From Brachionus manjavacas (lineage: Eukaryota > Rotifera > Eurotatoria > Ploima > Brachionidae): a DNA stretch of 64,000 nt. The notes below the pieces were generated by a model. The model did not search any database. It was given only the letters and a program-made list of their open reading frames with translations, and was not told the DNA's origin. Both the position numbers and the translations under genes were made by a program. This document shows positions 3,540-49,221 of this stretch, in pieces (within the stretch, counting starts at the first letter, position 1; each line of letters starts with the position of its first letter). The stretch lies in NCBI GenBank assembly GCA_019054805.1, contig JAHQIY010000037.1, positions 124,001 to 188,000 of the forward strand, in the 5' to 3' direction.

Positions 3540-4470
3540 GTAGGAGTAGTAAAAATAACTGCAACTCAAATGACCAGTAAAGCCATATGGCTGTGGCAGT
3601 TCTTTGCTTTCACACCATTTTCTGCTCCATAAACCATGTGTCAAGTTTTGCTTTGAATGAATTTAGCGAAATTGCTTCAACGACTCTTTTTGGTAATCGC
3701 TTCCAGGAATTTACAACCCTATTTGTGACAAAGTTAAAACTTGATGGAACATTTTTGATAAATTCTCCTTTAATCATCTTAGTGTGGCCTCTGAGCTTGC
3801 AATTATTTCTTTCAGCATATCTAATTCCACTTTCCAACCTGATAGATTCTAGACTATTGATAATTTTAAAAATTTGTATTAAGTCGCCTCTTATTCTTCT
3901 AGTATTCAGTGATGTAATTTTTTCCAAGTATGGATTCCAAACATTGATTCCATATTCCATTAGGCATAGAATAACTTAAATACATTGCTATTCAAAAATT
4001 AAAATTTTTCCCAATCTTCCCAAAACTTTATTCGCTCTGCCAGAAGAGTAGCTAACATGAGCACCCCATTTTAGATTGATTTGAAAAAGACACCCAAATC
4101 CTTCTCTTATTTTGTGTTAAGAAAAATTTTGCAGTCAAACTGATGATTTTTATTTCCAATTTGCATAACTTTACATTTCCTTAAGTTTAAATCAGTAGCC
4201 CACGTAATCGCCCAGCTTGAAACGGAATCTTTTTGTAAAGCTAAATTATCAGAAAGTTGGTTAATCGCTACAATTATTTTCATATTGTTAGCATATACTT
4301 TTGTTTTATTGTTTAAAAATTCAGACAAATCGTTTTTAAAAATAACAAAGATAGACTGAGTCTTGTTTCTTCCTCTCAAAAAACTTTTTACCCAACTTCT
4401 CAAATCAATTGTTTCTAATAAATTGGTGGAGCACGACTTTTTTGGAACGAAACCATGCTGAGAGGTTAAT
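3540..4470 (-). pseudogene. Decayed CR1/Jockey-type LINE (RT fragment and 3' end)
   Basis: Minus-strand remains of a non-LTR reverse transcriptase. Around 4390-4460 the frame reads QHGFVPKKSCSTNLLETIDL, a typical RT motif. ORF 4107-4403 continues with a deletion, and the catalytic YADD box reads YANN. ORF 3610-3960 holds the C-terminal domain (EYGINVWNPYLEK, then RRIRGDLIQIFKI, then SWKRLPKRVVEA). The 3' end runs into a TACTACTCCTACTACTATT tail (about 3530-3555). The same C-terminal block and a CTA-rich tail occur in the GC-rich LINE at 40799-42127, so this looks like an old AT-drifted relative. Stops and deletions make it non-functional. Confidence 0.8.
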
Positions 4471-4559
4471 AAAACAAATGGATCATCATTTTTCTAATGG
4501 TAAATGAAACAGGACGATAATTCCCAGGATCAAGTTAAGACCCAGTTTTGTATTATAGC

Positions 4560-9100: not shown

Positions 9101-12100
9101 ATGCTAAGACATGAAGATCGATTATACCATATTGTAGTATCGTTCCCATCGGTTTGTGCAAGACAATTCTTTATCTTTAAATGTAAGTACCATTTTTTTT
9201 AACATAAATTTAAATGCTCAATTTTAGGGAAGATTTGAATCAAATGTCAAATTGAAGTTGCTAATAATTTTAAATGTTAAATTTCAATTTGATAAAATTG
9301 GAAAATTTTGCTAAGCTAAAAGTCATAAAAAACTAATTACGGAAATAAAAAAACTTATTCCCTTAATTAAATTTTTATGTTTATTGCTGAATTTTTGTTA
9401 ATTCTTTTTTGATAAACAATTACTGAATTTACATCTTTTTTTTTTAATTTTTTTCTTCAACTAAAAAAACTTAAAAATTTAGAAAAAAATTCATTTCTCC
9501 AGCTAGAACAAAAAAAAATGAAAAAATTTTTCCTAAATTCCCCTTTGGCTGCATAAAAATAGGCCATTTAGTACAAAATTTTGATTTATTAAAAATTTAT
9601 GAAGATTTAAGGCCTTGAATAAAAGCTGAACTTAAAAAGTAAAAAAAAACGCTCCTTCTATTTTCAAAATAATCAGACTTCAAGATATTCTGGACAAAAA
9701 AAATATTTCCAAGGTTTTCATATGCTTAGATTACTACTGAACTTGGTTGACAGTTTGCCAAGGGTAAACCTTAACACTGGAAGCACCAAACTTGTCGCTT
9801 GACTAGTTAAAAAAAAATTAAATCCTCGTTTCTCTTGAAGATATTTTTAAAATAAATAATTTATTTTTCATAAACATTTACTTAAATTTTTTTTGAAAAT
9901 TTTGATTAGAAAAAAAACATTTGGTGCTTCTAGTGTTCAGTAAAATATTATTTTTGGTTAATATAAGACCTAATTTTTATATTATCTCCAGAAAAAAAAT
10001 AGATTATCCCAAACTCCGATCAAAGTTGGGTTAGATATTTATTAAAAGAAAATTGGTGAGAAGTTTTTAAGTTTTTCATGGCTAAAAAAGCAAATGCTAA
10101 TTAAATGAATAAAGGACGAGTTGGAATTTTTTTTTTCCAATAATTAAAAAATTATATAATTTTTCAAATAAACTCAAATTTTTTTTATTAAAATTTATGA
10201 AACTTTTTATTCTGTCTTTTTTGTTTTTAAATTCCAATCAGTAATTTAACTTCACCCAAATAAATAAATTAACTTAATCTACAGTGATGTTCCAGATTTA
10301 GCAATTTACGATAATTTACGTAAAAATTAGTAAATGTACCGAGTTTTACGAAAAATTTGGTGAATTTCGAGCATTTTACGTAAATTTATGAAAAAAAAAA
10401 TGTTCAAAAAATTGAAATAATTTAGTACTTTATTTAAAAAAATGAATTTTATTCATCCGTAAGTATTTTTTTCTAAATTATGTAAAAAAAATTTACCGTA
10501 ATTTACGTAAATTTTGATAAAATGCAATCAATTTAATGGCTTAAAAAGCTAAAATGTCGAAATTACATTAAACATTTAAAAAAGGTTAAAATTGAAAATA
10601 TAAAATAAAATTATAATTTATTTAAAGAAAATCTAGACAATAATAAAATTAATAGAAAATCAAAGGGGTTGGTTAAACAATTAAAAAGCATTAAAACTAT
10701 TTAAGATATTTTTTTAACCTTGAAAAAATGTAAATAAAAAATATTTTTCAATTTAATTAAAAATTTTATTTAACCATTTTATTTTTGATTACATTTTACC
10801 AAAATTTACGTAAATTATGCTTTTTTTTTTCAAATAATTTTGAAAAAAATATTGAAGGATAAAAATAGCCAAATTATTTTAATTTTTTGGATTTTTTTTT
10901 TTAATAAATTTACGTAAAATGTTCGAAATTCACCTAATTTTACGTAAAATCAAGTAAATTAACGTTTTTTTACTTTTGTTAATTTACGTAAATTTACAAT
11001 ATTTTGCATAAAATTCGGTAAATTTACTATTTTTTACGTAAATTATCGTAAATCACTAAATCCGGAACACCACTGTATATAAAATAAAATCTATATGATA
11101 AAAATTAAATAATTCTCATGTCAAAAAAGGTATTCCGTATACCGGGCAGCTTTCGAAACTTTTTCTTCATTTTAATTTAAAAAGACTGACTTACTCGTGG
11201 TCATCCACCGGTCAGCCAAACATTTTGCCTGAAAATAGTTTATTCAAACCAAAAAAAATAAATTAAGTAAAAATTAATTTTAAACTAGATTTTTAGTCAG
11301 TAATTGTTTCTTCAGAAATCGATTCTGTAAAATCATTCAGTAATAAAGTTCATTGAATCCTTGAATTTGTAATTCCTTCAGCCTAATTTGGAAGTGTTTT
11401 TGCTTTTAGTTCGACGAAATGAAGCTATTTATTGTTTGATCGGCTTTGGAATTGGAATAGGATGCTGCTTAGTGTATAAATGGTTTCGGACCACATTGTT
11501 AACTTTCAGCTACATTGACACAAAACCGTTTGTCGCGTCCCAAAACAATACTCTAAATAAAAAAAATAATGAAAATGGTTTATTGTTAGTCAATAATGAC
11601 AAGAAAAGGATACGGTCATCTTTTTCAGAATCCGTATTTAAACGAAAAAAATCACCTAAAACAAAACGGGTCAATAGAGCCAGCAATTTGAATGTGAAAA
11701 TAAACTTTAGCCAAGGTTTTGGCTTTAATTTGATCAAATATTTGAACAGACTGTCATTTAAAAATTCTAAAAGACCTTTGTGTCGCTTGAAACAATTTCA
11801 GATTAATAAAAAAAAGAGGAATATTTTTCAGAAAGGTGATCTTGCATCTCCGATTCGCGACGATTTTTTGAGTTTGGATCCAGCATCGTCTTTTGATTCA
11901 AAAAAAAATGTAGACAAGACTGATAAAGATAATGATTTAGAGAAAAAATTGTTGAGTTTTGATTACAAAAATACTTTGGACAATCTGAATAGAAATGGGA
12001 AAATTAATAATTCAATTATTGACTTCTCCAACTATTTTGCAATTAAAGAAGAAAACAAAAATAGTATTTTTTTTGGTGATGATGATGACTTATTCGACAT

Positions 12101-23046: not shown

Positions 23047-24616
23047 TGTTTTTTTTTAACGAGCTCTAATAATGATCTTTTATCATTGTTTAAAAGGTGC
23101 TTAAGAAATTGCAATTTTATAAATTATTTGAATTAAAATATTAAAATATTTTTCTTTATTAGTGCAACACAAATTTTTTTTGTTGGATTCTTTTGGACAA
23201 GTGAAATATAATGACTTAGTGAAACAATTTATTAATTTCGTGAATAAAATGTAAAGATAAAAATTAAATTTTTGCTATTATAATTAGACTAACATGTTTT
23301 AAAATTTGGCTCTCAAAATTCTTAAAAAAAAATTTGAATAATAAACGTCTTACACTTTGAAAAAAAATTTTAAACACATAGCTAAATTAATTTTTGAATA
23401 AATTTTCATATTTAATTTACAACAATCCTCAATTAAATGCGGCGTATTGAGGTTGCAGATCAGTCTCGTTTTATTTTAAATTTTTTCGTTTAACTTTTAA
23501 ATTAAAAACTTGATTCCGAGACCAACTTGCTTAGTTCAAAGCTAAATTCTGCTCATGTTTTTTCTAAATAAAAAACTGAAAAAAAAGATTTTTTTTTCTA
23601 AATAGAAATAGTATTAAAAAATTTTAAAATTAATAATTTTTTTTTTCTTTTTTGTTTGGGGAACTGTGAAATTCAGTATAAATTAGACCATTTAATTTTA
23701 ATTTTCAAGAAATTCTTTGTGTTACCTCATATAACTCATGCTCAGCGTGTTTAGACGACCATAATAAAAAGATCTCCTTAATAGGATCAATTTTGGATTA
23801 TTCTTTTCCTTGTTTAAATTCATTCTCAGCAACTAACATCGAAAAAATACAAGTTATTCAAGATTCAGCATATTTTTTTTTAAATTAAAAGTTGAATTAA
23901 TTAATTAATGTCAAGTCAAACAAAAATAAAAAAATGGTGATTATTTTATTGATATTTTTATTAAATTGGTTGCCCTAGAAAAATTTAAGTCTTTAACAAA
24001 AAAATTCACAAAACTAATAACAAATTGAACGATTCTTGATATCATACTGACTTCAATTGAAATGCTTTTGTTGGTGATGTTGTTGAATATTCTTGTTTAT
24101 TTGTTTCTGAGTCAGCTGGCTAATCGTAGGGCGGCCAGTTAGGTAGCTTTTAGATCCACCTTTGTTGCTGAGAAATTTAACTGTCAAAATCCATGTTTTA
24201 TCAGATTTCTCACTATCTTATTTATTCGTTAGATTACGTTTTGGTTTTAACCGAATTTTTGTACAAGATTGATCTAATAAAAAAAATTTAAATAAAAGTT
24301 GAATTGTGGAAAAGTGTAAATGTTAAAAAAATGAATATTGACATGTCGCTTTTGAATTATATGAAAATTTAACGGTCATTTTCGACTTTAAATTTTATGT
24401 TAGTTTATTGATTAATGTTATAAAAAGGGAATGTAAGTTTTAATTGGTAGCTTAACATGTCAATACATGAGAAGTTTTAATCAATAAATCAATTACGATT
24501 TAACTTATATCAACTACCAAGGATTGTCTTTTTAATTGGATGTATCAGCATGCTCAATAAAAGCTTTAATCCAATTATTTTTCCATTCATGAAGAACTTT
24601 TAACATTCTACATATA
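23047..24616. other. Gene-free interval upstream of the GALNT gene
   Basis: The GALNT promoter and 5' UTR should lie at the left edge, just after 23046, but no element is recognisable. The rest is AT-rich without a supportable gene. Confidence 0.4.
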
Positions 24617-25840
24617 CAGTGGTGTTCCGGATTTAGTAATTTACGATAATTTACGTAAAAAATAGTAAATTTACCGAATTTTACGTAAAATATTGTAAAT
24701 TTACGTAAATTTACAAAAGTAAAAAAACGTAAATTTACTTGATTTTACGTAAAATTTGGTAAATTTCGATCATTTTACGTAAATTTATGTAAAAAAAAAA
24801 TGTCCAAAAATTGAAATAATTTGGCACTTTTTAAAAAAATGAATTTTTGTTAACCTTCAATATTTATATCCAAAATTATGAGAAAAAGAAAATTACCATA
24901 ATTTACGTAAATTTTGGTAAAATGTAATCAATTTAATGGTAAAAAATAGTAAAAAATGGTAAAAAATGATTATTTAAAATTTTAAATTAATTTGAAAAAA
25001 AATTTTTATTAGGTTGGTTATAATTTTTCAAACACTTAAAGGGTGAAAAATTAATTTTAATTTTCTTTAATTTTTATTATTTTTGTTGAAAGGCAAAGAT
25101 TTAAGTAGAGAGCGCATTTGGGTATTTGAAATTGTTAAAAGAGAAATACCAGGTCAAAAAGATCAGAGAAAATTCTAAGCTATTTCTAAAGCTCCTTCAA
25201 AAAATAAAAAAAAAATAAAAAAACTATTAAATAATTTTTAAATCATTAATTTTTGAAGGAGCTTTAGAAATAGCTTAGAATTTTCTCTGATCTTTTTGAC
25301 CTGGTATTTCTCTTTTAACAATTTCAAATACCCAAATGCGCTCTCTACTTAAATCTTTGCCTTTCAACAAAAATAATAAAAATTAAAGAAAATTAAAATT
25401 AATTTTTCACCCTTTAAGTGTTTGAAAAATTATAACCAACCTAATAAAAATTTTTTTTCAAATTAATTTAAAATTTTAAATAATCATTTTTTACCATTTT
25501 TTACTATTTTTTACCATTAAATTGATTACATTTTACCAAAATTTACGTAAATTATGGTAATTTTCTTTTTCTCATAATTTTGGATATAAATATTGAAGGA
25601 TAACAAAAATTCATTTTTTTTTAAAAAGTGCCAAATTATTTCAATTTTTTGGACATTTTTTTTTTTACATAAATTTACGTAAAATGATCGAAATTTACCA
25701 AATTTTACGTAAAATCAAGTAAATTTACGTTTTTTTACTTTTGTAAATTTACGTAAATTTACAATATTTTACGTAAAATTCGGTAAATTTACTATTTTTT
25801 ACGTAAATTATCGTAAATTACTAAATCCGGAACACCACTG
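24617..25840. mobile_element. Mariner-type foldback element, copy B (near-perfect 590-bp arms)
   Basis: Begins CAGTGGTGTTCCGGATTTAG and ends with its complement, with TA on both sides. The two halves (about 24617-25202 and 25250-25840) are almost identical inverted copies around a loop of about 47 bp, so a strand could fold into a very long hairpin. The outer ends are rich in TTTACGTAAA words. The inner arms carry a sequence absent from copy A. There is no ORF. The near identity of the arms suggests a recent origin or gene conversion. Confidence 0.92.
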
Positions 25841-25844
25841 TAGT

Positions 25845-39656: not shown

Positions 39657-40640
39657 CAGTCGAGTCTTGTTATAACGATGCTGATTAATACGATATTCGC
39701 TTTATAACGATATTTTTTTTCATAATTTACATTCCCCAATATAATTACATGTTAAATTTCTTTGTTAATACGATGTTTCTTTAATACGATATCTAATTAA
39801 TACGATAGGTTTATTCAGAAAAAAACGTTCAAATCAGTGCTAATTGATCGTTTTTAATACGATATTGATCTTTTAAACAAAAAAATAGAAGACCTATGAA
39901 ATCCAGTTATAATTAAATATAATTAAATATTAATGCTAATTTAATTGCTTGTGTGTATATAAAGGTAATTTTATATATGTAAACAAAAAATGTCCACTCA
40001 AATTAAAAGAAAACCTTTGTCATTAGAAGAAAAACTTGAAATTTTGAATGATTTTAAAAAAAATAATCTCACTGTCACAGAACTTGTGAAAAAATATAAT
40101 AGACCTCAGAGTACTGTTTCTTCTATTCTTAAGGCAGAGAATCAAGAAAAGATAAAAAACTTATATGAAAATAATTTAATCAATCCTAGCTCTAAAAGAA
40201 TGAGGGGTTCTAATTATGTTAAAATTGAAGAGGCCCTTGATCACTGGTTCAAATCAGTTATGGCATATAAAAATATTACTCTTAACGGTCCAACTTAACG
40301 GAAAACGCATTGAAAATTTCAAAAAAAGAAGCAACGGACTGCATAGATAAACTAAGATTGTATTTTGCCCAAAAGAACGAAGACTGTTCTTTATTCATTG
40401 ATCAGTTGTCTAAAATGGATCAATTTTGTAGCGTCGATCAGTCTTTTCAAAGTAAAATTGATAAATATTTTTCCTTTTAATATATTTATTATTTTTAAAT
40501 AAACAATAATTCCTTTAAAAAAATTTATTTTCAATATTTTTCTTCCCATCCTTTAACATGCAAATTTGATTAATACGAAATTCGTTTATACGATGTCCTT
40601 TTTTTCCGCCCAAACACATCGTATTATCCAGACTCGACTG
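39657..40640 (+). mobile_element. Tigger/pogo-type element with internal deletion
   Basis: Terminal repeats CAGTCGAGTCTTGTTATAAC and CAGTCGAGTCTGGATAATAC (complement of the right end) are flanked by TA. ORF 39990-40298 encodes the CENP-B/Psq-type N-terminal helix-turn-helix (KPLSLEEKLEILNDFKKN...TVTELVKKYNRPQSTVSSIL). After a deletion, the frame 40296-40480 gives the transposase C-terminal tail (DQLSKMDQFCSVDQSF...). The DDE catalytic domain is gone. A second derivative lies at 54200-54700. Confidence 0.9.
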
Positions 40641-40836: not shown

Positions 40837-42127
40837 GGATGACTGCGAGTTGCCGGATGACTCCAGCAAGAGAACCTGAGTCCTATGAGCAGCCTGTTCT
40901 TTGGTCGTCAATCCTCTTCTTGAAAGAGTTGACACTTGGTGCGTCAATGACTGAATCGGGTAGCTTGTTCCACATTCTTGCTACCCTGTTGCGGAAAGCG
41001 TTACGTCTGATTAGACAGTCCTTCACTAGCTCTGGTCTGATGTGCCCTCGATGCCCGCTTCTGGGCGGTCCAACTTGTAGAGAGGAGTGCCATTCGATAG
41101 TGTCCAGTCCTTTCTGAATTTTGAACATTTCTATCAAATCACCTCTGGCTCTCCTTTCCTCCAGCGTTGTCAACTTCAGTTTTAGGCACCTGTCTTCGTA
41201 TGTCATGTCGCGGAGTTGAGTTGGGACTTTGGTGGCACGGCGCTGAACTTTTTCCAGTGTGTTTATCTCGCCGAGGCGGTGTGGTCTCCATGCTTGGATT
41301 GCATACTCGAGATGCGGTCTGACGTACGTAGTGTACATTTGTTTCCATATATACGCATCCCTCGAAACCAGCGTCTTGCGAAGCACTCCGAGCATGGAGT
41401 TGGCTTTTGCCGCGGATTTATCCACCTGAATCTTTGTGTCCAAAGTGTCACTCACATGGACTCCCAGGTCTTTTTCCGTTTTAGTAACCTCAAGCTCGTG
41501 TGGTATACCGGTCGACCTATCTAGGATGTGGTATTTATTCCCGGGGTTACGCTTTCCGTAATGCATGACCTTACATTTGCCGAGGTTCAGTTTCATCAGC
41601 CATTTGTCGCACCATGCTGCTAAGGCTTCCAAATCGCGTTGCAGTTGCTCACTACAGCTGCTCGTGAGTAAGCGCACGATGATCTTGCAGTCATCTGCAT
41701 ACATGGAAAGCTTATATGTTCTGGTAGGTCGTTTATGAAGACCACGAAGAGCGTTGGACCTATGACTGAGTCCTGAGGGACCGAGCTCGTGACTGGTGCC
41801 CATTCCGAACAATACTCGCCGAGGACAACTCTTTGCCTCCTGCCCGAAAGGAACGCCCTGATCCATCTGAGTACGGTTCCTTCTACCCCGTGAGCCGAAA
41901 GCTTGAGCAACAGTCTTTGATGTGGAACCTTGTCAAAAGCCTTCGCAAAACCGGTGTAGATGACATCTACTGGGCACTTGTCTGCGATTGCTCTTGTCGT
42001 CAAATCGGCTGATTCTAAGAGGTTCGTCACGCAGGCCTTTCTAGGGACGAAACCGTGTTGCTTCTTACATATCAGGTCGTTGGCTACAAAATGTCCAACC
42101 AAACTGTCCCTTACCATGCTTTCCATG
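40837..42127 (-). pseudogene. GC-rich CR1-like LINE, 5' truncated, frameshifted RT
   Basis: Minus-strand reverse transcriptase in two frames. 41620-42126 gives KKQHGFVPRKACVTNLLESA, FAKAFDKVPHQRLL and VPQDSVIGPTLFVVFINDLP. 40883-41866 continues with YADDCKIIV, WCDKWLMKLNLGKCKVMHYG, DLGVHVSD and the C-terminal WNKLPDSVIDAPSVNSFKKR. A frameshift near 41710 separates them, the usual LDFAKAF reads TGFAKAF, and SGVPQGS reads SSVPQDS, so it is inactive. Endonuclease and ORF1 are absent. Base composition is close to half G+C, in sharp contrast to the very AT-rich flanks. Confidence 0.93.
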
Positions 42128-42969
42128 ATTTAAGTTCCACTGAATTGTTTTTTTAGTCTACAATTTTCTAATTTTAATTCAAATTAAAAAAAAAATCGTC
42201 TGTCAATTTTAAAATACTTGGAACATTTATTTAAACTATTTATTTATTATTAAGTAGCTTTAAATTTTATACTTAAAGCATGGAGAAGGAATATCAAGAT
42301 TAATTTTTTAGTTTTATATTAAGATTAAAGTTTTAGGAACTGATTTTTTAAATCAAATTGAAAGAGTTTATATGTTAAAAAAGCGTCACATTATAAAAAT
42401 CATTGAAAAAAAGATAACTAAGACTTTATTGAAAGCTTAACTATTGGGATCGCATCAAAAATTAAGATTAAAGTTTTTTTTTAATAAAAATAATTTTAAA
42501 ATAAAAAAAAACAAATTTAGTTTTCGATTTTTTCTCCTGGAAAAATCGGCTTTTGAAAGTGTAATTTTTAAATTGAATTTTTGGATTTTTATGTTTAATT
42601 AAAAACTTTTTTTTTTTGATTTTATTTTAACTTTAGAGTTAAATGCATTAATAAAATATTTGCTAAAAGAAAAGTTTCTTTGGAATTTTTCTCATTCAGA
42701 TTTAAGCGGATTTAAACAAGTCGAACTCTCTTTTGCTAACTTATGCTATTTTAATTAAAAAAAAAAACTAAAACTGTAAAACTAATATCTTTTATTTAAT
42801 CTGATATTTTATAAAAACAAATATTCTCATACTAAATAATTATTTCCAACTATAGAATAATGCCAAAAAAAGTGTAACCAACAAGTTCCAGTAATTTATT
42901 TGGATTCTTGTTTAGTTGTTTTTAAGGACGACTAGACTTTTAACTTAAGTTTAAACATATCAAATTAAT
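42128..42969. other. Intergenic AT-rich stretch
   Basis: Lies between the LINE and the PHF12 stop codon and includes the presumed PHF12 3' UTR. No other feature seen. Confidence 0.4.
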
Positions 42970-47361: not shown

Positions 47362-48801
47362 TTATTTTCTTACTCTTTTTGACAATTGCTCGTTTTCATT
47401 GCTTGATTTTTTTGGTCTTCCGCGTTTACGTTTCTCAGAAACTTGAATATTATTTTCGACTTGATCTGCTTTCATAAAGTCGTTCAAACTTAATCTGTCT
47501 CGATTGGTACCCTCATCTTTGATTGTATTGTTTGTAGACTCAAGACCGTTGTTCGTGCTTGGATAACCATGTGCGTAAGTTTCATACCAGCCCAATGTGT
47601 ACTCGCTCATCCATTGTGTTTTGAAATAGTCGAAAAACTTCTTGATGTTTTCGTCATTTCTCGTGCACCACTTTTGCTCTAAAAGATCGAACGCTGTACT
47701 AAAAAGCCGCTGTTGAACACCGCCTTGAATCGACTTGAAATCGGTCTTAATTTGAACTTTTGAATCTTTGTCGACTCCTTTAAGGTTTTCATCAATTTTT
47801 CTCTCAACGTGAGCCCAACATACAATTCGTTTTTCGAGACGAAAGACTGATTTAAAACCGTTCGTTATTGCGCCTGCTGCATCTGCTAATAAAACACTTG
47901 GATCCAAATCGTGTCCATAGAGTTCGAACGATAAGTTCTTACAAGTTCTAAACATATAAGCGAATTCTGACTCGGTTTCGTATCGTGACAATAAAACGCC
48001 GAACGGATGAAATGTATTGTCACTGTCATTTGTCCCACACAATAACACCGGAAAATTCAACCACAGCAACTTATAAGTAGCGTCTGTTGCAATGTGTTTA
48101 CACTTAGTTGTAAAAGAAATTAAGCGTTTGGTGGTTAAAAAAATTTTGAAAGTAAGCTCGTCAGGTGTAATCTTGAACTCCGAGACCGCAAAAACTTCGT
48201 CAAGATCGTCCGGGATCGCATTGTGTGAATCACACCAGTTTTTCAGCATCTCAACTGTCATCGTCGGTTCATCATGTTTTTTTACTCTTTGGATGAGATT
48301 TGTAATTTGAGTTTGTGAAATCTCTACAAAGCCTTCCGATAAATGAAGACGTAACCATCGCGAGATTTCTTTCGGTTTTTTGCCCTCTTTTTGGTACATT
48401 TCTACGACTCGGTTTTTGCTTTTTTCCCAAAATTCTTTTGATGGTCCGTCGGTATGCAAGTGAAGACAATCTTCAATACAGACTTTAACGTCTTGACTTG
48501 TGCGAAGCTTAAGCGAAAACATTTTTTTGGAACACGACGAACATTTGTAAAATTGCTTTTCACCTTCTTTTGTGACTCTTTTTGCCTTTTTTGCCCATCT
48601 ATTTCCGTCGATCTGACCACCTTCAAGTGATTCAACAAATTCGGCAAAGTTGGAATAATTTGCGTATTCGTCGTAGACTGTGTTTGAACCACGTTTCGAT
48701 TGCACTTGCTCTATCTCTTCAACATCATTATCAGTATTATCAAGTTGATTTTCTTGATTATTGACCGATAAAAGAACAGAAGTTGAAGAGGCTTCAGACA
48801 T
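47362..48801 (-). CDS. MULE transposase
   Basis: A 479-codon frame from ATG. It encodes a Mutator-like transposase that would cut and paste the surrounding element. After an acidic N-terminus there is a zinc-finger region (YKCSSCSKKMF...EDCLHLHTDG, about residues 84-114). A helical DNA-binding segment follows (EISRWLRLHL...QITNLIQRV). The catalytic core shows first Asp in ATDATYKLLW (about 240), second Asp in LLADAAGAITNGF (about 310), a WAHVERK block (about 330) and the third acidic site in STNNGLESTNN (about 418). The C-terminus is an AT-hook (KRKRGRPKKSS). The SWIM finger usual before it, and present in the copy at 28776-29651, is absent. The frame is intact, so it may be recently active or complemented. 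Confidence 0.88.
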   Translation of the reverse strand: MSEASSTSVLLSVNNQENQLDNTDNDVEEIEQVQSKRGSNTVYDEYANYSNFAEFVESLEGGQIDGNRWAKKAKRVTKEGEKQFYKCSSCSKKMFSLKLRTSQDVKVCIEDCLHLHTDGPSKEFWEKSKNRVVEMYQKEGKKPKEISRWLRLHLSEGFVEISQTQITNLIQRVKKHDEPTMTVEMLKNWCDSHNAIPDDLDEVFAVSEFKITPDELTFKIFLTTKRLISFTTKCKHIATDATYKLLWLNFPVLLCGTNDSDNTFHPFGVLLSRYETESEFAYMFRTCKNLSFELYGHDLDPSVLLADAAGAITNGFKSVFRLEKRIVCWAHVERKIDENLKGVDKDSKVQIKTDFKSIQGGVQQRLFSTAFDLLEQKWCTRNDENIKKFFDYFKTQWMSEYTLGWYETYAHGYPSTNNGLESTNNTIKDEGTNRDRLSLNDFMKADQVENNIQVSEKRKRGRPKKSSNENEQLSKRVRK

Positions 48802-49221
48802 TTTTTTAATCAGATTTAAAGTTAAAATTTTATTTATTTCAAAGTTTAATTTTCAAGCAGTTTCAAGGAATTCATTTTTATATAAATTATGTAACAAGCT
48901 GATTATTTACTCAATTAAGAAATTAATTTAATTGAAATTGATACATTTAAGTCAAATTGTCAAAAATCAAAAAATAAACACTTATATGATAAATATCTAC
49001 TTCACAAATTAATTATCTACCTTTGAAAATAATTATCAATTTTAGTTTATATTTATCTCCTACAAAAATAATTTATCCACTTATTTTTTTATCTCCTTTT
49101 TATTAATAAAATTATACACTAAAAAAAATATTTATCTCCTAACGAAAAACTAAGCCATAAAAAAATCAAAGATATAAAGAAAAAATATTGACACATTTTT
49201 GTTATGATTTGACAACTAAAT

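Follow-up and report, generated by a model that had tools for sequence, protein, structure and literature searches.

A TA-flanked palindrome is very probably a non-autonomous Tc1 element whose longer coding relatives carry a second gene head-to-head with the transposase

The 64,000-nucleotide stretch of DNA analysed here (the window) contains, at 24617-25840, a sequence (copy B) that is nearly its own reverse complement, which raised the question of what kind of element it is, how it could move and how its two arms could arise and stay alike. Self-comparison of the window bore out the near-exact inverted duplication with TA flanks that had been proposed in an earlier, sequence-only reading. 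Copy B spans 1,224 bp and has a TA dinucleotide directly outside each edge. Either end carries the tip CAGTGGTGTTCCGGATTTAG, the two tips being in opposite orientations, and over the full 1,224 bp the identity of the element with its reverse complement is 97.3%. The inner inverted arms, separated by 38 nt, matched each other over 380 nt at 99%; further out, an ungapped inverted match of 214 nt (95%) extended 30 nt beyond either edge of the element. The near-perfect, TA-flanked palindrome at 24617-25840 is real, and the following features were recognised in it:

24615..24616, no strand: TA target-site copy to the left of copy B, read from the sequence
24617..25840, no strand: copy B, the whole palindromic and very probably non-autonomous Tc1 element, 1224 bp
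24617..24636, plus strand: left tip CAGTGGTGTTCCGGATTTAG
24640..24793, plus strand: left subterminal array, in which 20 GTAAA/TTTAC half-sites, 5 TTTACGTAAA among them, follow a 5/10-bp lattice
24617..25207, plus strand: left arm of the palindrome, from the inverted self-match
25028..25207, plus strand: inner left arm, matching the interior of non-coding relatives of the L039/L088 type
25208..25245, plus strand: loop, into which the match to the L039/L088 type runs on from the left arm
25246..25840, minus strand: right arm, an inverted copy, from the inverted self-match
25664..25817, minus strand: right subterminal array
25821..25840, minus strand: right tip
25841..25842, no strand: TA target-site copy to the right of copy B

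No transposase was found in copy B by tblastn with the family transposase (E 1e-3), which matched the window only in a second element, copy A, in agreement with the earlier statement that the arms carry none. The window had no Rfam match at gathering scores. A transcript of copy B would be double-stranded, because its predicted fold reaches -840.6 kcal/mol, so that the long double-stranded RNA foreseen in the earlier reading stands as a prediction; any such RNA would be a by-product of the hairpin. Descriptively, copy B is Foldback-like, almost all of it consisting of the arms.

Long perfect palindromes are a known type of artefact, and the structure could in principle reflect a fold-back produced in the library or during assembly. 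In order to look for further copies, the 114-Mb eukaryotic assembly (61 contigs) was searched with a pattern of CAGTGGTGTTCCGGATTTAG in which two positions were allowed to be A or G. The pattern occurred at 182 places, 172 of them preceded by TA, with 0 in both counts for the reversed control, and the further TA-flanked copies on which the earlier reading had been made to depend were thus found. The DNA search with copy B gave at least 114 matches; only 40 of its 1,271 candidates were scored, so the family counts derived from it are lower bounds. Elements with both ends seen had TA on both sides in 35 of 36 cases (a 249-bp element in L027 fell below the size floor and was left out of the measurement), although 172/182 is the fairer figure, since most of these 36 had been chosen with the TA pattern. 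Seventeen palindromic copies, whole or in large part, were examined; all had TA at each outer edge, and they differed in their arms, including hybrids of two arm types, and in their central types, which makes an assembly artefact unlikely by sequence. Flanks of at least 60 nt were available for 13 of the 17, and when these 26 flanks were compared, two matches emerged: two different copies shared 52 nt at 88%, and in a single copy the left and right flanks matched each other, so that palindromic copies mostly lie in unrelated surroundings. Moreover, non-palindromic members with the same tips exist alongside the palindromic ones. Taken against these observations, an artefactual origin of the palindrome is extremely improbable.

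The kind of transposon was recognised through larger relatives bearing the same ends. Three of the tip pairs listed lay about 2 kb or more apart, and transposase exons were present in two such pairs, L037 (2,278 bp) and L038 (3,529 bp), as well as in L093, L094 and L095. The transposase of these coding elements is spliced, with several exons read by eye; for L037, exons and splice sites were read in this way and the catalytic exons were joined before searching. The joined exons matched Pfam DDE_3 with 38.7 bits (cut-off 28.6) and the catalytic domain of Sleeping Beauty (SB100X) with an E value of 8.9e-16, and 34 residues separated the second D from the E when counted on the SB100X alignment. 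Because of these two matches and this spacing, the family was classified as Tc1, DD34E. Each end of L037 and L038 is a terminal repeat of 470-490 bp, and the arms of copy B were 87-95% identical to the outer part of these repeats. Through these coding relatives with the same ends, the hairpin family can be assigned to the Tc1 (DD34E) branch of Tc1/mariner. The earlier description of a mariner-type element was correct in this sense, with the TA target seen at 172/182 tips as expected of Tc1. The DD34E spacing was observed in the coding relatives and not in copy B; a single transposase gene, which is typical of Tc1 and not strictly defining, was not what we found, because the 3.5-kb form has a second gene. 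Copy B shares terminal sequence with the coding members and lacks the transposase, as a non-autonomous derivative does. At the level of sequence, therefore, copy B and the coding elements have their ends and TA target in common, palindromic copies are many and the gene pair of the 3.5-kb form is conserved; with the steps proposed below included, the best explanation is very probably that copy B is a palindromic, non-autonomous member of Tc1 (DD34E).

Copy A had been taken for an older relative of the hairpin, a view that did not survive comparison with the coding elements. Its features are:

10282..11075, plus strand: copy A, internally deleted derivative of a coding element, with TA flanks
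10551..10752, plus strand: retained transposase tail together with the sequence after it, matching L037 1615-1816

The tips of copy A differed from CAGTGGTGTTCCGGATTTAG at 2 and 0 positions, TA was present on both sides and the terminal inverted repeat was 86% identical over 86 bp. Positions 270-471 of copy A corresponded to L037 1615-1816 at 90%, and a transposase remnant of 18 codons was detected by tblastn at 10552-10605 (94%). As judged from this L037 match and the 18 codons, copy A is therefore an internal-deletion derivative of a coding element, and the possibility of an eroded, older hairpin was ruled out by the same two observations. The inner arm is indeed missing, as had been noted, but copy A is more than a hairpin without it, since its interior keeps the transposase remnant.

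Several other transposon-like sequences were observed. The left flank of L038 (L038 409-799) contained pieces of another Tc1-like transposase, 53-54% identical, as if L038 had entered an older element. Five short transposase-tail matches about 7.5 kb apart were located in G000:C10:2735846-2765887, as if an A-type copy sat within a tandem 7.5-kb repeat and had been multiplied with it. Unbroken Tc1-like transposase frames of 536 and 433 aa were found in L057 (C35:298047-298649) and L060 (C32:511995-512603), respectively; they were 37-39% identical to the transposase of the hairpin family, and no accessory-gene match was present in the flanks examined. In the window itself, open frames at 47362-48852, 39969-40298, 40883-42129 and 3610-4493 had the look of transposable elements and were read by eye as a MULE-type transposase, a pogo/CENP-B-type helix-turn-helix and pieces of LINE reverse transcriptase. 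The only COX1 match, in G000:C21:120555-121901 (L087), lay by eye in a bacterial cytochrome bo oxidase operon, with a 667-aa open frame and neighbouring subunit-like frames, and contig C21 may therefore be a bacterial symbiont or a contaminant.

The ends of copy B are made of a repeated word whose arrangement was analysed in the window and in the assembly. TTTACGTAAA occurred five times in each outer 200 bp of copy B and twice more in its middle; copy A contains the word as well, and the remaining 61,982 window bases have none. Five TTACGTAA were counted in the first 200 bp of copy B; in 5,000 sequences simulated with a first-order Markov model, the mean was 0.10 and the highest count 3. GTAAA/TTTAC half-sites numbered 20 in the outer 180 bp, their density being 100 per kb in the first 200 bp of copy B vs 4.2 per kb elsewhere in the window, and 18 of the 19 successive steps between them were multiples of 5 bp. 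L037 keeps 19 of these 20 half-sites. With half-sites defined on copy B, agreement with copy B over 40 ends was 0.908 at half-site positions and 0.844 in spacers (p 0.0004). When five coding copies were each compared with copy B, changes were seen at 0-1 of 99-100 half-site bases, and in the spacers at 4-7 of 58 bases (p 0.0007 to 0.017; the copies are related and the tests not independent); in L093, for example, 0/100 half-site and 7/58 spacer bases were changed (p 0.0007). The excess was absent in L039 (9/99 vs 5/58) and in the dead copy A (7/100 vs 2/58 in spacers). The array of half-sites is thus conserved, as far as base changes tell, between copy B and the coding copies, and the earlier suggestion that the repeated word is a protein-binding site agrees with this constraint, but finds no counterpart in L039 or copy A.

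In the whole assembly, TTTACGTAAA occurred 4,193 times compared with 921 for the reversed form, and TACAGT followed by TTTACGTAAA after 8-34 bases was found 804 times compared with 13 for the control. Among 100 such places listed, the tip-to-word span was 45 bp in 64 and 35 bp in 14, and 78 were without the exact tip of the hairpin family, some of which may differ only slightly. A clearly different tip, CAGTAGCGCTACGCCACATGG, with TA outside, was present at both ends of an element at C1:478546-481181 whose arrays, likewise on a 5/10-bp lattice, contain the same TTTACGTAAA word, and TTTACGTAAA is therefore common to at least two families with different tips. The closest relative of copy B, L002 (C35:263625-264839), had TTTACGTAAA-type words directly on both sides, as if nested in an array-bearing element. 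An array of this kind could serve a host protein, for instance a bZIP factor, or could impose DNA curvature through phased AAATTT tracts. The exact palindromic TTACGTAA words, which would be sites of PAR/E4BP4 type, would suit such a role, and so would the 5-bp phasing, which fits binding on one face or curvature; a host site would nevertheless by itself leave the near-fixed distance between tip and word unexplained, even if shared descent contributes to it, and we regard this reading as unlikely.

A second gene came to light in the longer coding elements. About 1.25 kb present in L038 and L094 were missing from L037 and L093. This extra sequence contains a putative first transposase exon, itself without a Pfam match, and bears, on the strand opposite to that exon, a second gene in several open stretches, one of which is interrupted in L038 and open in L094:

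L038 1277-2535 (L038 = C7:5056391-5059919), opposite strand from the putative first transposase exon: second gene, head-to-head with the transposase; also in L094 (C3, right end 722214)

Both genes were kept in the same head-to-head layout in L100, an older relative with 66% DNA identity. Between L094 and L100, exon A of the second gene had codon-position differences of 7, 7 and 30, with 39 of 53 residues equal, and the neighbouring transposase exon had 16, 3 and 30. An excess of third-position changes in the second gene was found in 9/9 comparisons among four loci (p 2e-6 to 0.04), comparisons that are not independent of each other, and this codon-position bias indicates selection on the gene.

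The whole assembly gave 64 matches to the second gene at E up to 1, from which 36 accessory clusters were kept once those whose E exceeded about 0.0014 and any repeated match at one place had been removed. A DDE_3 match lay within 4 kb of 10 of the 36, 9 of them head-to-head, where 0.36 were expected. When the family transposase was used (at least 150 matches in the assembly underlie the count), 18 of the 36 clusters had a match within 4 kb, compared with 0.25 expected, and 18 had none, both among the matches listed. The head-to-head arrangement was scored in 16 of the 18 linked clusters; the C7 locus, that of L038, was scored as "other" only due to the separate transposase fragment in its left flank, and at C8:1148816 the accessory locus is truly on the same strand as its transposase. 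Several of the linked clusters are close relatives, so that they do not represent 18 independent cases. Two elements bounded by tip-plus-array ends contained accessory matches. The one on C2 (2438361-2441812, TA included) is bounded in this way at either side; its transposase exons lie on the minus strand, and the plus strand encodes its second gene. The C1 element with the CAGTAGCGCTACGCCACATGG tip carried arrays together with the second gene; among the transposase matches listed, none fell within 4 kb of that gene.

The accessory protein had no Pfam match at the cut-off, the weak matches to FTA4, Med19 and RRP14 falling below it and being set aside, and no match in PDB by phmmer (best E 0.75) or by profile; in viral contigs, 124 stretches fitted a pattern and none was confirmed. 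In the titles and abstract openings searched, no second gene in an animal Tc1 element was described, though such a description may still exist in print, and in passages from some of the papers the terms "second ORF" and "two ORFs" referred to other element types. Elements that capture fragments are common, and the second gene could be a captured piece of a host gene which is not a working part of the element, as its lack of a known domain and the 18 clusters without a nearby transposase might suggest. Against this, the association with the transposase far exceeds the 0.25 expected and is mostly head-to-head, the third-position excess recurred in every comparison (with the dependence mentioned above), and the layout was kept in L100 in spite of its divergence; a captured fragment is thus very unlikely.

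That the second protein binds the array is a guess prompted by their co-occurrence. Tentatively, we propose a two-component Tc1 system, to which we would give somewhat less than even chances: the second protein would sit on the helically phased TTTACGTAAA arrays, the transposase would cut the family-specific tips, and the arrays would fix the pairing of ends, so that palindromes produced by snap-back would be mobile and would keep regenerating. The accessory proteins of the ciliate TBE elements, made in E. coli, are described as having no specific DNA binding (PMC12242761). The arrays might instead be bound by the N-terminal helix-turn-helix domains of the transposase itself while the second gene does something else. 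The half-sites are constrained in the coding lineage, which would agree with this, and the DNA-binding domain of the Galileo transposase is described as having many sites in long, internally repetitive ends (PMC3688188). Conversely, the C1 element combines a different tip with the same word and accessory matches and has no transposase within 4 kb among the matches listed; since its tip differs while its array word is the same, the word goes with something more broadly distributed than the tip. Binding by the transposase is accordingly a real possibility which we nonetheless tend to doubt.

How the palindrome was formed was approached by comparing its inner arm with non-coding relatives bearing the same tips. 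From 25028 onwards, the inner arm of copy B matched the interior of L039 (1,973 bp) and L088, obtained in a search with 40 of 680 candidate places scored. In these relatives the sequence following the arm is the loop of copy B, after which, in copy B, the arm returns inverted; this polarity of arm, loop and inverted arm is the one that snap-back or template-switch repair would leave. The inner arms of the 17 aligned palindromic copies were of two types, X and Y. Copy B and L002 were X/X, as were five further copies in which one arm lacks about 42 bp; L009, L040, L041a and L099 were Y/Y; L097, L098 and L041b were Y/X hybrids, all with the short loop seen in L040; and L046, L050 and L054 had lost part of the middle. 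The occurrence of symmetric X/X and Y/Y copies beside hybrids means that either repeated palindrome formation or copying from arm to arm is needed.

Minority variants were common to both arms of one copy at a frequency of 0.299, against a mean of 0.089 and a maximum of 0.202 in 500 shuffles with random pairing. Private variants, in contrast, were found on both arms in 4 cases and on one arm in 29, and arm-to-arm copying is therefore rare or old. In a tree of arms, each of L037, L038 and L039 had its two ends grouped together with starred support, and little was resolved within the palindromic group (26/37 inner branches open). An exchange between ends, like the one considered here, has been proposed for Galileo (PMC3573991).

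According to the proposed mechanism, repair synthesis inside a non-coding relative would snap back onto its own strand and copy the left part outwards to the tip, giving the palindrome two perfect ends. Copy B would be moved, or would have been moved formerly, in trans by the tip-binding transposase of coding copies, and the protein of the second gene, or else the transposase or a host protein, would load on the array in order to pair the ends. The likeness of the two arms would be kept up by occasional copying from one arm to the other, or by palindromes forming anew. The X/X, Y/Y and Y/X palindromes together with their non-palindromic relatives offer a naturally preserved history of the way in which perfect palindromes originate in a genome and keep their arms similar.

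Tc6 and Tc4 of C. elegans are long, nearly perfect palindromes related to Tc-type transposons, Tc4 having a TNA target; by description, they resemble copy B in being palindromic or fold-back, and differ in host, tips and sequence. In CACTA / En-Spm elements, a second protein, TnpA, binds repeated subterminal motifs. This offers an analogy of function only, since the transposase belongs to a different superfamily and binding of the array is, in our case, a proposal. The hairpin family shares with Tc1, Minos and Sleeping Beauty the TA target, the CAGT... tips, the DDE_3 domain and the DD34E spacing, and differs from them in its 470-490-bp ends with dense palindromic arrays, its multi-exon transposase and its second, head-to-head gene. 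Tc1 elements are described as having mostly ends of about 30 bp, with some, such as Minos, having long ones (PMC7325037), and a single ORF as a rule (PMC7325037, PMC12242761).

Galileo and Tetris, which are Foldback-like, also have long, internally repetitive ends and derivatives consisting mostly of ends (PMC3573991, PMC3688188, PMC4079207), those of Galileo with many protein sites and a proposed exchange between ends (PMC3573991, PMC3688188). Neither is, by these descriptions, a Tc1 element, Galileo having a P-type THAP transposase and Tetris being described as non-autonomous (PMC3688188, PMC4079207), whereas the partner transposase of the hairpin is of the DDE_3 type, which does not place it in the P superfamily. 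The exceptions named to the single-gene rule of Tc1 are the ciliate elements Tec and TBE (PMC7325037, PMC12242761), whose layout was compared by description only. Tec of Euplotes is akin to the present family in being a DD34E Tc1/mariner relative whose ends are very long (about 700 bp) and which carries more than a single gene, one being in complement, and differs in its ciliate host and its three genes, including a site-specific recombinase (PMC7325037). TBE of Oxytricha is likewise DD34E Tc1/mariner, with accessory proteins described as under purifying selection, but is a ciliate element with three genes, ends of about 80 bp and different accessory proteins, namely a zinc-finger/kinase protein and a 22-kDa protein (PMC12242761, PMC7325037).

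The hairpin itself is of an already known kind, a palindromic non-autonomous Tc1 element; its 3.5-kb coding partner, in which a conserved second gene goes together with phased arrays common to families with different tips, departs from the usual form. If the proposal is true, a second gene coupled to a subterminal array that crosses families would be a further exception to the single-gene Tc1, with a testable prediction of binding.
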